Of a stretch of DNA of 64,000 bases, positions 46,556-52,475 are shown piece after piece (within the stretch, counting starts at the first letter, position 1; the number at the start of each line of letters is the position of its first letter). The translations under genes and the position numbers were made by a program. The DNA is taken from assembly GCA_018333785.1 (NCBI GenBank), contig JAGXSU010000107.1:1-64000 (forward strand), written 5' to 3'. The notes under the pieces are model-generated. The model worked only from the letters and a program-made list of their open reading frames with translations. It was not told the DNA's origin and ran no database searches. This DNA is from Methylomicrobium sp. (GTDB taxonomy: Bacteria; Pseudomonadota; Gammaproteobacteria; Methylococcales; Methylomonadaceae).

Positions 46556-46716
46556 TATTTTCGCACTTCAAATTTGGGCAGCACCAAAGGAGGCAACGGG
46601 GTGTTCGGCAAAGGCTATGCCAGCAGGAATGCTGGCATAGAGCCTATAGGGATGAGTTTTACGGCGCCCTTTGACGGGCACCCCGGTGCCGAATTTCGAT
46701 CTACGATGGGCATAAA
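46556..46716 (+). repeat. Dispersed repeat of about 160 bp, copy 1
   Basis: Direct partner of the stretch at 47622-47781. Shared segments include ttcgcacttcaaattt, caacggg-tgttcggcaaag, a hairpin tgccagca..gaatgctggca, tagagcctatagggatg, cctttgacgggcacccc and gccgaatttcgatctacgat. It ends 18 bases before the tusC stop. Small open frames inside look repeat-derived. Confidence 0.85.
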
Positions 46717-46733
46717 CAACTACCCACGCCTGA

Positions 46734-47096
46734 TCAACCGGGCAAAATGCACTCGTGTTGTTTAATAAAGCCGGCAATTTGGTTTCTGGCAAGCAATTTA
46801 ACGGGTAAACACAAATCCTGAACCGTTAAGCCGCTTTGCTCTAGCGATTCCGTTTCCACATAAAAAGCATTAACATCGTAAACGTCCAGCGCTTCGAAAA
46901 TTGCGGTAGTCGCTTTCAATCCCAGTTCATCAGGCCGCTGATTTTTTTTAATTTGAAATACACCGTCATCAATAAACAGCAAAGACACAGCCTGATCAAA
47001 AGCCGCTGCGCTCATGATCTGATCAAGCGCTTCCTGAACGGACACGCCACTCGCTGATTTGCTGATAATAAATAGAAACTTTTTCATCCGGTTCAC
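46734..47096 (-). CDS. tusC: TusC/DsrF family sulfur relay protein
   Basis: About 120 residues, DsrE-fold. KKFLFIISKSASGVSVQEALDQI and LLFIDDGVFQIKKNQRPDELG match TusC. In E. coli it forms a hexamer with TusB and TusD and hands sulfur to TusE for tRNA 2-thiouridine. Start: GTG 47096 gives a GTGA overlap with the tusD stop (coupling); ATG 47087 (MKKFLF) is the family-like start. The usual third gene, tusB, would follow here, but a repeat copy is found instead. Confidence 0.85.
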   Translation of the reverse strand: MNRMKKFLFIISKSASGVSVQEALDQIMSAAAFDQAVSLLFIDDGVFQIKKNQRPDELGLKATTAIFEALDVYDVNAFYVETESLEQSGLTVQDLCLPVKLLARNQIAGFIKQHECILPG

Positions 47097-47482: not shown

Positions 47483-47900
47483 TTTTTAAGACCTGTTATG
47501 AGAGACAAATTGCTAGACTGTCTTTCAAAAGATTATAATCGGCCATGGTTTAAAACAAAATGCTGACCTGTCCTTTTCTCCTTCTCGCTTGCTCGAATCC
47601 TGAGACTATCGCTGTTGTATACCTTTCGCACTTCAAATTTCGGCGGACCTCTAAGGAAGCAACGGGTTGTTCGGCAAAGTCTTTGCCAGCATGAATGCTG
47701 GCATAGAGCCTATAGGGATGTATTTACGGCGTCCTTTGACGGGCACCCCGTTGCCGAATTTCGATCTACGATAGGTGTATTTAGATTCATCATACCAACT
47801 CACAGACAGAATACCCGATAAAGGGAGCTTTCCGAGTGGCAACTGATCAAGCCAGCCTTAAACAAAGGAACCAAAATTCCGCCCTTATGTCCGAACTTTC
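47483..47900. other. Gene-free region upstream of tusD and bepA
   Basis: 418 bases holding the second repeat copy (47622-47781) and the divergent promoters of tusD (minus) and bepA (plus). No gene seen. Confidence 0.5.
47622..47781 (+). repeat. Dispersed repeat of about 160 bp, copy 2
   Basis: Same orientation as copy 1 at 46556-46716, about 1.07 kb apart. Small insertions and base changes (for example tttgccagcatgaatgctgg against tatgccagcaggaatgctgg) show age or divergence. The hairpin tgccagca/tgctggca is kept. Confidence 0.85.
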
Positions 47901-49361
47901 ATGATAAAAAATCCCGCTAAATTTTTTGCCGTTTATTTAGTCCTTACAACATACAGCGCTGCCGCTCTTGACCTGGAACCCGAAAAATTCAACCTGCCGG
48001 ATATCGGTGATTCTTCAGGTACACTGATTTCTCCGGTACAGGAACAAGAACTGGGTGAAGCTTTTTTCAGAAGCTTGAATTCACAGATCGATGTCAGCCA
48101 GGATGTTGAAATTCAAGAGTACATAGAAACCATAGGCAGCAAACTTGTTGCAAACAGTGATTCGCCCGGAAATCCGTTTCATTTTTTTGTGGTTAATGAT
48201 AATGCCATCAATGCGTTTGCAGGCCCTGGCGGTTTCATAGGCGTTAATTCGGGATTGATTTTAACAACTGAGGCGGAAAGTGAATTAGCCTCGGTCATGG
48301 CTCACGAAATTGCACACGTTACTCAGCGCCATCTTTACCGCGCTTTCGAAGCCGCCAGCCGCTTGTCTATTCCAACCGCTGCAGCTACGCTGGCGGCCAT
48401 TCTGTTAGGCACCCAATCTCCGGAACTGGCTCAGGCCGCTATTGTGGCGGTACAAGCCAGCAGCATACAATTTCAAATCGACTTTACCCGAGATAATGAA
48501 ATGGAAGCGGACCGGGTCGGCATGCAAACATTGGCTAATTCAAAGTTTGATCCGCGCAGTATGCCGATTTTTTTTGAACGACTACAACAATCAAGCCGGT
48601 ATTACGGACGCGGCATTCCTGAATTTTTAAGAACTCACCCGGTTACTTCATCCCGGATCTCAGACACACGCGGACGTGCCGAAAAATATCCTTATCAGCA
48701 ATACCCTGATTCGCTGGGCTACCTAATCGCCCAGGCAAAACTTCGGGTAAGCACCAGTCATGATTTATCTGCAGTACAAGATTATTTTAAAATCCGGCTT
48801 AACCAGGGAACGGTCCAACAACGAGCGATAGCCCGCTACGGCTTGGGCCTGGTTTATTTGAAACAGCAACAATTTAACGATGCTGCCGTACTCTTCAGAC
48901 AATTGATGACCGAATATCCTGAACAAACCCATTATGTAACAGCAATGGCTAAAACGGCTCAAGAATCCCGTGATTACCCCGCCGCACTGAATTTATACAA
49001 AAAAGCGCTGTTTCAGTTTCCGGGCAATACAGCGCTAAAACTGGATTACATCAGCACACTGCTCAAGATAGGCAAACCGGACGAGGCAAGGGAAATCATG
49101 CTGTTGCTGCCCCCTAAAATCAAACAGAGCGCCCTTTATCTGAAGCTCCTGGCTCAAATTTACAGCGATTTACAGCAACCGGCGGAATCTCACCGTCATC
49201 TTGCCGAATATTATTACAAACTGGGGCAAAATGAAGCGGCGATCATACAGATCAAACTCGCTCAAAAGGCAGCCGGATTGAGTCAACACCTTTCTGCAAT
49301 TTTGGATGAGCGCTTGGCATTTTTTATCAACGAGGAACGCGAACGTAAACTTGATCGATAG
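47901..49361 (+). CDS. bepA: BepA-like periplasmic M48 metalloprotease with TPR repeats
   Basis: 486 residues (E. coli BepA/YfgC 487). Signal peptide (MIKNPAKFFAVYLVLTTYSAAA, cut before LDL), zinc motif H135-E-I-A-H139 and third ligand around E202 in DNEMEADRVGM. The C-terminal half (about 270-480) is TPR: AIARYGLGLVYLKQQQFNDAAVLF, YPAALNLYKKALFQFPGNTALKLDYIS and others. It degrades or helps assemble outer-membrane proteins such as LptD. The gene stands alone. Confidence 0.92.
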   Translation: MIKNPAKFFAVYLVLTTYSAAALDLEPEKFNLPDIGDSSGTLISPVQEQELGEAFFRSLNSQIDVSQDVEIQEYIETIGSKLVANSDSPGNPFHFFVVNDNAINAFAGPGGFIGVNSGLILTTEAESELASVMAHEIAHVTQRHLYRAFEAASRLSIPTAAATLAAILLGTQSPELAQAAIVAVQASSIQFQIDFTRDNEMEADRVGMQTLANSKFDPRSMPIFFERLQQSSRYYGRGIPEFLRTHPVTSSRISDTRGRAEKYPYQQYPDSLGYLIAQAKLRVSTSHDLSAVQDYFKIRLNQGTVQQRAIARYGLGLVYLKQQQFNDAAVLFRQLMTEYPEQTHYVTAMAKTAQESRDYPAALNLYKKALFQFPGNTALKLDYISTLLKIGKPDEAREIMLLLPPKIKQSALYLKLLAQIYSDLQQPAESHRHLAEYYYKLGQNEAAIIQIKLAQKAAGLSQHLSAILDERLAFFINEERERKLDR

Positions 49362-49542
49362 CCTGAACGACTCATTCAAAAACAATAGACGGACAATGAA
49401 CCGAAACTTAATAACGAAAAAATGCAGGGCAGCCACTGCCGATCAAAAAGACTGATTCAGGCTTAATATGGATTGTAAGCTTATGATGAATAACTATGTT
49501 TTCGACACGAAACTATTAATTAATTTAATTTGACTTTTTTGA

Positions 49543-49570
49543 TAGACAACACGTTTTTTGATGGTATAGA
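49543..49570 (+). promoter_or_regulatory. Extended -10 promoter of the candidate small RNA
   Basis: -35-like tagaca (49543-49548), 16-base spacer, and tgg-tataga (TG at 49562-49563, hexamer 49565-49570), an extended -10. No protein gene follows on this strand before the terminator at 49731. Confidence 0.5.
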
Positions 49571-49576
49571 ATGCTC

Positions 49577-49751
49577 GGCAGCTAAACGGAGTGAGCCCGA
49601 TTCTAAATCGGTAATGAGGAGGATAGACCAAATCGGTCTCGTAACAATAACAATAACAAACGAGTTAAAGCTTAGTTGTCCTTGAGTCAACAACGTTCAT
49701 TCAATAATAATAATAATAACACCTGAACATGCCCGCGTAAGCGGGCTTTTT
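49577..49751 (+). ncRNA. Candidate intergenic small RNA
   Basis: About 175 bases from the predicted start to the terminator. The 5' half can fold into two small hairpins (ccgatt/aatcgg at 49597-49611 and gacc/ggtc at 49626-49638), each next to a direct repeat aaatcggt (49605 and 49630). The middle is single-stranded with aacaataacaataacaa (A-R-N pattern) and later an AAT run near 49704, both Hfq-binding-like. A reading frame of 23 codons from 49614 lacks a ribosome binding site. The class is unknown; it is supported by promoter, shape and terminator only. Confidence 0.5.
49731..49751 (+). terminator. Rho-independent terminator
   Basis: gcccgc / gcgggc stem with a gtaa tetraloop followed by ttttt. 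It is 370 bases after bepA, so it more likely ends the candidate small RNA. Confidence 0.9.
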
Positions 49752-49841
49752 ATTGCCTGAAATAAACCCAAACCTGTTTTTTTTCCGGACAAAAAAATGG
49801 CGGCCTATTAACCGCCATTTCATAGAAAATCAAAATCCCGA

Positions 49842-52172
49842 TCAGATACTCAAGCGCACGCCAATCCAACCGGCTCTGGGCGCGCCCGGTGCGACAAACC
49901 GGCCATCGTCATAAGCATCGCCCAATACTTCATCCGCTTCTCCGTAAACACCGAACGAGTTGTAGCGCTTATCGAATATATTGTCGACCCTGCCAAACAC
50001 AGCAAAGTTTTGAGTCACTTTGTATTCAGCCTTTCCGTTAAACAACCAGTAACCGCTTAATTTGCCGTGATTGTTGGCTTCGTCACCTCTGAAGAAGCGC
50101 GCCCCGCTGTAAGTACCATCCATACCCAATGAGACCTTTTGCCACAAATCAACGCTGACGGCCGCTTTAAACATATGCTCAGGTATCCCGGGAATCCGGT
50201 CACCTTTTTCAACCATCACACCCTCTTCATTATCTTCATCAACCGGATCCTGCGTTTTAAATTTGCTTAAAAAACGGGCGTTCAGATAGGTATAATTCGC
50301 CATGAAATGCCAGTCATCTATCCCGCTAAATAACTGAGGATAATAGATTGAAGTGCCTGTTTCCAAGCCATAACGACGGGTTTTACCGACATTGTCAAAA
50401 TAGCCTTCACTGATACTGTCACCGCCTCTCTGGAAAATAATATCGTTAGAATTGGTGGTATGAAAATAACCCAGATTCCATTTCAACTCGCCACGCCCCA
50501 ATAATTGATCCAAATCACCTCTGAATCCCCCTTCATACGTTTTGGCCACGACTTGCTCGAGCGGCGGGTCGGCAACGAAGGAGTTCGGCAATTTACAAGG
50601 CGCTTCCGGATCGGCGCAACTCAATTCCATCGGCGAAGGAATCCGGGAAGACTCACTGTAGCCCCCATAAACCGTCAAGTTGTCTAAAATCTTGTAGGTC
50701 AAGCCACCCGATGGATTCAGACGCTCAAAGGTATGAGATCCGTCTAATGTTTTGTCGGGATCATTGACGTACTGATCAATCATATTGATATGAGAATAGT
50801 TGTAGCGCCCGGCAATAGTTGCACTCAATTTCTCGGTAATATCAAACGTATCGGTCAGAAAGACGCCCACCGTCGATGTATTGGTATCCAGACGCACTCT
50901 GGATTCATCGATGAGCACACCGCTTTGCGTCGTTCCTCTTGACCGCGTTAATGAGCCCAATTCGGTATCGGATGAAAAATTGACTTTGGCATAATCATAA
51001 CTGACGCCAGTCGTTAAACTGTTTTTGTGTTTGAACAAGTCCTGGCCAAAAGTTGTCTGCAAGGTTCCGCCCCGGCTGCGCATATTGGTTTGGCTGGTAT
51101 TGTTGGTTGCGCCCTCAACATCATCGGAAGCAAGAATATCATTACCGAAAATATCGGCGACACGCTCCTCCTCACCATCGTCTTCTTCACAAAGAAAGCC
51201 GTCATTTCCGACATCCTCACACGCTTCAAAATCACTGTCATCGCCATTAAAGGTCTTGATACGATTCTGGCGAAAATATGCGTTACCGCTGAGCTCTATA
51301 TCATCGGTCACTGAATAACTGCCTTCCAGCTCGGAAAAAAACATGCGGGTAATCGTTTGATCAGGATGGGTAAAAACGGCTTTTTCATGCTCATCCAACA
51401 ACTGAACCGGCACCGCACCGTTGCCTCTCAGATCGTTGTCGTTGCCGCCTAAAGTCAAATCCAGAGAGGCTTTATCGCCCCGCCAGCTTAAGGTGCCGAA
51501 AGCCTGATCGGCCTTGGTCGGGGAAAAATCCCGCCAGCCCTCTTCTTCAAAATGATGCAGGTCTAAAAAATAACCCCAGGTACCGTTATTCCAGCCGCTG
51601 GTTAATTCCTCCGAATGCCTGTCCCAGGAGCCTCCATAAGCCTCGATTTGATGGCCTGGCGCAGAAAAACCGGTTTTGGTTCTGACCGAAATAGCCCCAC
51701 CCAGACTGTTTAATCCATAGACAGGATTTGAGCCGGGATACAAAGCCATAGACTCAATTGCCCCTTCGGGTATCAAATCCCAATTAACCGTATCGCCGAA
51801 TGGCTCATTAAATCGGACGCCATTAACATAGGTAGACAGACCTTGCGGCAAGCCCAGCAAAGGTGAGGCAACAAAACCACGGTAGTAAATATCAGGCTGT
51901 AGCGGATTATTTTGCGCTTCGTTGACGTGCACACTTCCGAGATAACGATTCAAATACTCGGCCAATGAAATAGCCTGAGCATTTTGCAGTTCTTCGGATG
52001 TTACGGTTTGAATGTTCGCGGGGATTTTATCGACAGGCACATCCGATCCGGGCAACGGCGTTACACCGATCACTTCCATAGCTTCAAGCTCCATCGTATC
52101 GTCATCAGCAAGGGTTGTTCCGCCGCTTCCCAGGGAGGCGACACCCAATACTGTGCAAAAAAATCGTTTCAT
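49842..52172 (-). CDS. TonB-dependent outer-membrane receptor
   Basis: From ATG 52172 the protein has 776 residues. Signal peptide (MKRFFCTVLGVASLGSGGTTLA), a TonB-box-like MEVIGV, plug domain (KIPANIQTVTSEELQNAQAISLAEYLNRYLGSVHVNE to about residue 150) and a beta-barrel ending FVAPGAPRAGWIGVRLSI with terminal aromatic-type strand. A very acidic stretch with two Cys lies around 311-351, probably an outer loop. Ligand unknown: siderophore, cobalamin, copper chelator or sugar are all possible. No Fur-like site is obvious before it. Confidence 0.9.
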   Translation of the reverse strand: MKRFFCTVLGVASLGSGGTTLADDDTMELEAMEVIGVTPLPGSDVPVDKIPANIQTVTSEELQNAQAISLAEYLNRYLGSVHVNEAQNNPLQPDIYYRGFVASPLLGLPQGLSTYVNGVRFNEPFGDTVNWDLIPEGAIESMALYPGSNPVYGLNSLGGAISVRTKTGFSAPGHQIEAYGGSWDRHSEELTSGWNNGTWGYFLDLHHFEEEGWRDFSPTKADQAFGTLSWRGDKASLDLTLGGNDNDLRGNGAVPVQLLDEHEKAVFTHPDQTITRMFFSELEGSYSVTDDIELSGNAYFRQNRIKTFNGDDSDFEACEDVGNDGFLCEEDDGEEERVADIFGNDILASDDVEGATNNTSQTNMRSRGGTLQTTFGQDLFKHKNSLTTGVSYDYAKVNFSSDTELGSLTRSRGTTQSGVLIDESRVRLDTNTSTVGVFLTDTFDITEKLSATIAGRYNYSHINMIDQYVNDPDKTLDGSHTFERLNPSGGLTYKILDNLTVYGGYSESSRIPSPMELSCADPEAPCKLPNSFVADPPLEQVVAKTYEGGFRGDLDQLLGRGELKWNLGYFHTTNSNDIIFQRGGDSISEGYFDNVGKTRRYGLETGTSIYYPQLFSGIDDWHFMANYTYLNARFLSKFKTQDPVDEDNEEGVMVEKGDRIPGIPEHMFKAAVSVDLWQKVSLGMDGTYSGARFFRGDEANNHGKLSGYWLFNGKAEYKVTQNFAVFGRVDNIFDKRYNSFGVYGEADEVLGDAYDDGRFVAPGAPRAGWIGVRLSI

Positions 52173-52475
52173 TCCTTTTATCTCGTAAAAATTTGGTTCG
52201 GTATGATATTCGGATGGCCCAAACATAACTATCTGCTTTGAAAAAAAGGAATTATTCCTATCGCCTTAGCGAATGCCCCCACGAAATTGAAGTGATTCAA
52301 CCTTAATTGATTATAATAAGTACGACCAACGATACTCTGATAGGCGATTATCTGTTTGCATGCAACAGACCCGGCTAGAGTTCGGCGTGTTAATCAACCA
52401 AGCTCAAGGCTCACATTGTGTTTTTCTGACTTCTTGAGCAGCTTTTACATTCATTCACCAGCTCAGGGTACTTTC

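Follow-up and report, generated by a model that had tools for sequence, protein, structure and literature searches.

Organization of the locus

The window (the whole 64-kb stretch of DNA that was analysed) carries a small RNA gene between two convergent genes, a peptidase gene on the + strand and a TonB-receptor gene on the - strand. An earlier note on this DNA had described, at 49543-49751, a promoter with an extended -10 reading, two hairpins, A-R-N repeats, an AAT run and a terminator in this setting, and all of them are present. The length of about 175 transcribed bases given there agrees with the match to the covariance model R1 (described below), which covers 173 nt. The features of the locus are as follows.

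47901-49361, + strand: BepA-like M48 peptidase gene, the upstream flank
49455-49470, + strand: place of a degenerate TNAG-N6-CTNA box (UvrY/GacA-like); best nearby match, 4/6 core bases
49499-49517, + strand: conserved upstream palindrome TTTTCG-ACA-CGAAACTATT (= TTTTCGACACGAAACTATT), at about -80 to -62
49543-49548, + strand: -35 element TAGACA, read from the sequence; T[AGT]GACA is conserved at -33 to -36
49562-49572, + strand: -10 element TGG-TATAGAAT (TAGAAT at 49567-49572), conserved at -10 to -12
49579-49751, + strand: predicted small RNA, 173 nt; extent taken from the R1 match (123.9 bits)
49586-49590, + strand: 5' GGA (ACGGA), in a 5' hairpin loop in many relatives; the window allows a short stem only
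49597-49611, + strand: hairpin H1; double changes at 5/5 modelled pairs in relatives
49605-49612 and 49630-49637, + strand: two copies of aaatcggt, read from the sequence
49616-49623, + strand: purine linker GAGGAGGA between H1 and H2; GAGG[AG]GG in 84/107 members
49625-49639, + strand: hairpin H2; double changes at 4/5 pairs in alignment A1 and 5/5 in alignment A2
49643-49660, + strand: A-R-N block 1, aacaataacaataacaaa, six triplets; candidate dock for the Hfq distal face
49675-49694, + strand: hairpin GUUGU-N10-ACAAC, read from the sequence
49695-49728, + strand: possible GUUCA/UGAAC helix (49695-49699 with 49724-49728), which would close a loop containing block 2
49703-49720, + strand: A-R-N block 2 (the AAT run), six triplets; candidate dock for the Hfq distal face
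49731-49751, + strand: intrinsic terminator GCCCGC-GUAA-GCGGGC (stem 49731-49746) followed by U5
49842-52226, - strand: TonB-receptor gene, the downstream flank, convergent

Judged from the alignment, the RNA would start with CAGCU at 49579. The hexamers TAGACA and TAGAAT are separated by 18 nt, and an alternative reading of the -10 region, TGG-TATAGA at 49562-49570, gives an extended -10 element. By single-sequence statistics, the promoter-like sites (7, with 5.3 expected) and the terminator-like sites (3, with 3.8 expected) between 48000 and 51500 were not beyond chance. The fold of the RNA was more stable than that of its shuffles (z -2.79), only one of 200 being equally stable. The locus is nevertheless more than a chance arrangement because it is conserved across genomes, its helices covary and its promoter hexamers stand at fixed places: in 106 loci, T[AGT]GACA gave 79 matches at -33 to -36 and TA[AG]A[ACT]T gave 80 matches at -10 to -12.

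Elsewhere in the window, two intergenic-looking segments at about 46570-46790 and 47615-47840 have similar ORF translations (FDGHP.AEFRST), which suggests a repeated element.

Distribution of the RNA in Methylococcales

A blastn search with a 231-base stretch gave matches in 45 of 101 genomes and 25 of 42 genera, many of them aligning with the 3' part only (block 2 and terminator). Model R1 was built from alignment A1 (mafft, 20 rows), for which 20 of 30 loci were used. With a threshold of E 0.01, R1 matched 230 of the 311 genomes of the order Methylococcales and 43 of its 50 genera, with about 3 matches expected by chance; 81 genomes of the order gave no match, including some good assemblies from genus g20. 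A covariance search in other methanotrophs, which the earlier note had proposed as a check, thus finds the RNA widely, and the conservation of promoter, hairpins and terminator in related genomes, on which that note had made its claim depend, is borne out. Across the class (369 genomes), R1 matched seven genomes, three of which belong to the order. The four others had E values of 0.0027-0.009 and are about the number expected by chance. Among the genomes listed in this class-wide search, G066, a further member of the order, had no match. With laxer filters and E 0.05, 38 of 40 genomes matched, a rate that provides no independent evidence because these genomes had mostly been picked for an earlier R1 match.

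A scan with a terminator pattern yielded 118 loci, of which the 80 listed were used. R1 matched 65 of them at E 2.3e-4 or better. All 65 came from methanotroph or unclassified proteobacterial records, including Methylobacter, Methylomonas, Methylovulum, Methyloglobulus, Crenothrix and Methylicorpusculum. The other 15 (from Pseudomonas, Citrobacter, Thalassotalea and others) were rejected as terminator look-alikes, none of them matching R1 at E < 0.02.

From these searches 119 RNAs were extracted, 30 of which were blastn matches and hence biased towards the window. They gave 107 unique members, 81 from Methylomonadaceae and 26 from other families. Truncated loci (L058, L061, L071, L073) and loci at contig edges (L201, L215) are outside this set; L236-L243, together with the paralogues L225-L235, were inspected and left uncounted.

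We considered whether the RNA might be a fragment processed from the 3' UTR of a neighbouring gene, or an attenuator. In 70 of the 107 members, the end of a bepA-like gene on the same strand does immediately precede the RNA. All 70, however, fall within the 81 Methylomonadaceae, the arrangement being absent from the 26 members of other families; the promoter hexamers are conserved at a fixed distance, and in the window the gene on the downstream side is transcribed towards the RNA. This origin is therefore very improbable. The conserved promoter hexamers, the terminator pairs and the model matches agree with the earlier reading of a small RNA gene that has a promoter and a terminator of its own. 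Judged from the genomes compared, this is a free-standing gene for a regulatory small RNA of Methylococcales, with its own sigma70-like promoter and a product of 145-200 nt.

Covariation and secondary structure

In A1, the named structure formed standard pairs in 87.9% of the cells, and 26 cells carried double changes, as compared to 9.4 in shuffles. Alignment A2 contains 63 rows that were fitted to the model and so leans to it; it gave 145 double-change cells, compared with 43.5 in shuffles and at most 36 with slid partners. H1 covaries in both alignments. The cells of H2 were paired in 64% of cases in A1 and 81% in A2, and the long-range helix before the terminator had double changes at one of six pairs in A1 and at six of six in A2. 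The counterpart of the GUUCA/UGAAC helix in relatives, UUGAGU/ACUCAA, was 92-94% paired; in the window alone, GUUCA/UGAAC was not better than shuffles (p 0.31). By duplex energy, the closing helix reached p <=0.05 in 26 of 79 RNAs of Methylomonadaceae and 5 of 20 others, eight RNAs being skipped.

The terminator stem hardly varies and its pairs are kept in 63/63 aligned members; it is followed by T5 in 80 of the 81 Methylomonadaceae. The 5' hairpin is weakly supported, and better by stem lengths (at least five pairs in 56/107 members, compared with 16% of shuffles and 38% of crossed arms) than by the fold test (p <=0.1 in 7/79 Methylomonadaceae and 2/20 others).

The bases that follow the terminator stem (TTTTTATTGCC, 49747-49757 in the window) recur in most of the 30 loci compared, beyond the needs of a plain terminator, and TTTTTATTG is largely complementary to A-R-N block 1.

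The repeated aaatcggt had been put forward in the earlier note as a possible seed for target pairing. This idea was abandoned: among the 107 unique members, the doubled repeat is confined to 3, which all belong to the window's genus, and the 104 others have no copy at all. Both copies overlap the 3' arms of hairpins, whose sequence changes elsewhere and whose pairs are mostly kept.

A-R-N blocks and the predicted binding of Hfq

The longest A-R-N run reached at least six triplets in 78 of 107 members, compared with 0.6% of shuffles. At least two blocks of at least four triplets lie behind the linker in 83 members (71/81 Methylomonadaceae, 12/26 others), compared with 1/107 after shuffling; the purine linker itself reads as A-R-N in some members, and the count is 90 when it is included. 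Block 2, before the terminator, is usually the longer of the two. It has at least five triplets in 75/81 Methylomonadaceae and 25/26 others (100/107) and at least six in 52/81 and 14/26. The upstream block 1 has at least four triplets in 73/81 and 12/26, respectively (85/107), and at least six in 17/81 and 2/26. Both blocks reach at least six triplets in only 7/107 members, the window included. The predicted unpaired probability of the A-R-N runs (linker runs included) was 0.82, compared with 0.50 for the whole RNA. The A-R-N stretches are thus conserved and predicted to be mostly unpaired, as expected of the Hfq ligand that had been proposed. On either strand of the window, there is no other pair of five-triplet sites within 25-100 nt.

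Since the A-R-N blocks are the strongest signal, docking on Hfq is the most likely biochemical property of this RNA, and we infer that Hfq binds it. A point against this reading is the U5 tail, which is short for the proximal face of Hfq. The distal face offers six A-R-N pockets per hexamer, corresponding to 18 nt (PMC6422490, in part), and the window's genome encodes Hfq (G000:C152:17847-18035, over the cut-off). Hfq was found in 56 of 58 genomes and CsrA in 55 of 58; the two are so nearly universal that their presence cannot choose between the readings considered here.

Such blocks could also serve titration. Once induced, the RNA would draw Hfq away from mRNAs with A-R-N leaders, in the manner of CrcZ, which titrates Hfq (PMC4063720, in part); members with intact GGA sites would perhaps draw CsrA as well. 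No feature of the family is more strongly enriched than the A-R-N blocks, and the window RNA, short as it is, has two full six-triplet blocks; both points favour this reading. However, the other members seldom have two blocks of this size, and 14 of the 26 from other families lack a second block of even four triplets. A pure sponge would moreover leave the conserved hairpins and linker unexplained. Crc is not clearly present: the genome has six Exo_endo_phos matches, and the one compared scored 325 bits as an exodeoxyribonuclease (2jc5) and 246 bits as Crc. We consider titration less likely than our preferred reading, of which it is the main rival.

The purine linker and GGA motifs

The linker, which is absent from the earlier note, has the consensus GAGGRGGA and lies between the two covarying hairpins. 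The alternation of A and G within it preserves pairing with U. It would suit contacts with C/U-rich mRNA, or with CsrA by way of its GGA. Its G count differs between genera and 23/107 members lack the strict motif, which is unlike a strict seed and speaks against linker pairing of that kind. The linker also contains AGGAGG, which as a Shine-Dalgarno sequence would make the RNA a translated small ORF or a dual-function RNA. A start codon follows GGRGG after 4-15 nt in just 17 of 107 members, so that we rejected translation as hardly credible.

The window was scanned for UCCUCCUC as a lead to target mRNAs; beyond the copy in the RNA gene there is a single one, antisense within the TonB gene, and no target emerged.

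The GGA motifs, together with the control region described below, raise the question of a Csr/Rsm RNA, which would sequester CsrA and be switched on by UvrY/GacA. A GGA lies within nt 6-20 of the RNA in 52/81 Methylomonadaceae and in 25/26 members of other families, and the linker adds further GGAs. Members of the other families have more A(N)GGA than their shuffles (3.15 per RNA, compared with 1.29), with both the 5' and the linker site in 23/26, and the window RNA has three copies. In Methylomonadaceae the enrichment is slight (1.72 compared with 1.38), and 16/81 have no A(N)GGA. Over all 107 members, GGA itself is not enriched (2.88 per RNA, 2.69 in shuffles). The unpaired probability of GGA barely exceeds that of shuffles (0.51 compared with 0.47 in Methylomonadaceae, 0.49 compared with 0.45 in the others). 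Since a single GGA does not sequester RsmA, as described for RgsA (PMC2375449, in part), those Methylomonadaceae members that have no A(N)GGA are probably not Rsm RNAs of the plain type.

The control region and its possible regulators

The upstream palindromes and the possible link to UvrY/GacA were likewise missing from the earlier note. In 38 of the 80 loci from Methylomonadaceae, a TNAG-N6-CTNA palindrome begins at -122 to -124; the remainder of the 400-base upstream region gave 2 matches over 356 positions, from which 0.07 would be expected. The motif alone is weak, with 13 occurrences in the window, and its position is the evidence. In other families it was found at -121 in 2/26 loci. In the window's genus the intact box is absent, and only the degenerate one is present. 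A UvrY palindrome lies far upstream of csrB/csrC (PMC4682653, in part). The agreement of the box with the UvrY site TGTAAG-N6-CTTACA is confined to the core and does not extend to the outer bases. The LetA consensus of Legionella is presumably closer to it. No such closer LetA consensus was found in the literature searched, which included part of PMC5338858.

The window's genome encodes CsrA, over the cut-off. It also contains a regulator gene of the UvrY/SirA/GacA family in two pieces, at the ends of contigs C15 (1-210, - strand) and C196 (50708-51136, - strand) of G000. The pieces scored 159 and 74 bits, the best of all families (the next family gave 79 and 57), and each falls under the whole-protein cut-off of 280. 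A contig break apparently splits the gene, so that annotation of the assembly may miss it. A regulator of this family was found in 36 of 48 genomes. At E 1e-25 it was not found in nine RNA-carrying genomes, some of them incomplete (G018, G006, G025, G064, G081, G061, G068, G063, G078). In a count by hand of 43 among the 48 genomes, the regulator was present in 18 of 20 that have the box and in 16 of 23 that lack it (p 0.10). Because the regulator was not found in some RNA-carrying genomes and its link to the box is loose, a Gac-type input, if there is one, looks like a lineage-specific layer and not like the core of the function.

These results bear directly on the Csr/Rsm reading. The box at its constant place in many Methylomonadaceae, the GGA motifs and the presence of genes for both CsrA and a UvrY/GacA-family regulator speak for such an RNA. 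The box is nevertheless scarce outside Methylomonadaceae, the regulator escapes detection in the nine genomes, and A(N)GGA is little enriched in Methylomonadaceae. Furthermore, the Rfam models of CsrB, CsrC, RsmY and RsmZ gave no match either at the gathering score or up to E 5. We therefore regard a CsrA-sequestering RNA of this type as improbable.

The window's genus has a second palindrome, TTTCGNNNCGAWAC (TTTCG-N3-CGAWAC). Over 106 loci it gave 22 matches, every one at -76 to -79, and none elsewhere in the 200 bases upstream of these loci. The + strand of the 64-kb window has no other such site. In L212 and L220, two loci from another family, the -35 box of this RNA is preceded by a different palindrome, TGGCAWATGCCA. 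The operator seems to have been exchanged between lineages.

Relation to known small RNAs

In Rfam 15, no family reached its gathering cut-off over the whole window. Nor did any family reach it in searches with 321 bases of the window and five distant members under permissive settings, and with eight paralogue loci at the gathering score. The leads in the window (Trp_leader at E 0.019, AaHKsRNA82, STnc280) lie on the 3' part with the terminator and are below gathering, as are those in relatives (asX2, AgvB); all were rejected. No natural small RNA of gammaproteobacterial methanotrophs was described in the literature searched, which included parts of PMC10355033 and PMC5568370, most subscription papers lying outside it.

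Four groups of RNAs resemble the present one in part. ChiX and MgrR are Hfq-dependent RNAs of the A-R-N carrying kind (class II). Like them, our RNA has an A-R-N block upstream of an intrinsic terminator and an exposed segment that could contact mRNAs; it differs in having a second A-R-N block, of full length in the window, and a U5 tail. The sequence relation to this class was compared through Rfam, with no match. With CrcZ of Pseudomonas it shares repeated A-R-N stretches of the type that the distal face of Hfq binds (PMC4063720 and PMC6422490, both in part). CrcZ is longer (407 nt, with six A-rich stretches; PMC4063720, in part) than the 145-200 nt found here, where one long block is accompanied by a usually shorter one. 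CrcZ has a CbrB/RpoN promoter, whereas a -35/-10 promoter, judged from the conserved hexamers alone, precedes our RNA, which carries the conserved purine linker in addition.

CsrB/CsrC and RsmX/RsmY/RsmZ are free-standing as well, and the likeness extends to the UvrY/GacA-like palindrome far upstream in many relatives and to the GGA in the 5' loop and in the linker between hairpins. The differences are the small number of GGA motifs, the long A-R-N blocks, the failure to match Rfam and the missing box in the window's genus. RgsA of Pseudomonas, likened here by description, is a Gac-linked small RNA that is not an RsmA sponge; it has 120 nt, depends on RpoS, lacks the palindrome and is affected by GacA probably indirectly (PMC2375449, in part). 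We conclude that the RNA forms a new family of a known kind, the Hfq-type small RNAs, and that it combines traits seen in CrcZ and in Csr/Rsm RNAs without being a proven member of either group.

Proposed mode of action

The gene family and its conserved parts are read directly from the genomes, and each binding and regulatory step proposed here is what we infer from them. Our preferred reading, to which we give a probability of about 0.45, is that of a small RNA docking on Hfq and acting on mRNAs, probably through the linker. With moderate confidence, we suppose that upstream regulators switch the RNA on. In about half of the Methylomonadaceae the activator is perhaps a response regulator of the UvrY/GacA family, and in the window's genus another factor might act at TTTCG-N3-CGAAAC. 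The RNA would then be held on Hfq through its A-R-N blocks. As a guess to which we commit ourselves, the exposed linker would contact C/U-rich stretches of mRNAs, and this contact would alter their translation or stability, as in trans-acting Hfq-dependent small RNAs. We prefer the contact between linker and mRNA to titration because two blocks of at least six triplets occur in so few members.

Gammaproteobacterial methanotrophs matter for methane emission and for methane-based biotechnology. The presence of the RNA in 43 of 50 genera suggests that it should control something basic. Its promoter, docking sites and linker are mapped well enough to be mutated one by one, and the RNA would offer a way into the global regulation of these hosts.

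A broader proposal is that of a methanotroph-specific class of RNAs that would bind both Hfq, through the A-R-N blocks, and CsrA, through the GGA loop and the linker. It would be under Gac-type control in many species and would include, in Methylomonas-type genomes, a set of paralogues, many of them under a common palindromic operator. We hold this combination to be rather unlikely.

Paralogous copies

Two genomes of genus g11, probably Methylomonas (G213 and G223), contain the main copy and dispersed copies of similar architecture, with 8 and 5 R1 matches in all, respectively (E 0.05). In several of the paralogues L225-L235, the -35 box is immediately preceded by a palindrome that resembles TGCGACAAATTGTCGCA. 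With a strict pattern, it was found at 6 of the 11 paralogue loci and upstream of 0/107 main RNAs; the paralogue set of this genus may share one operator.
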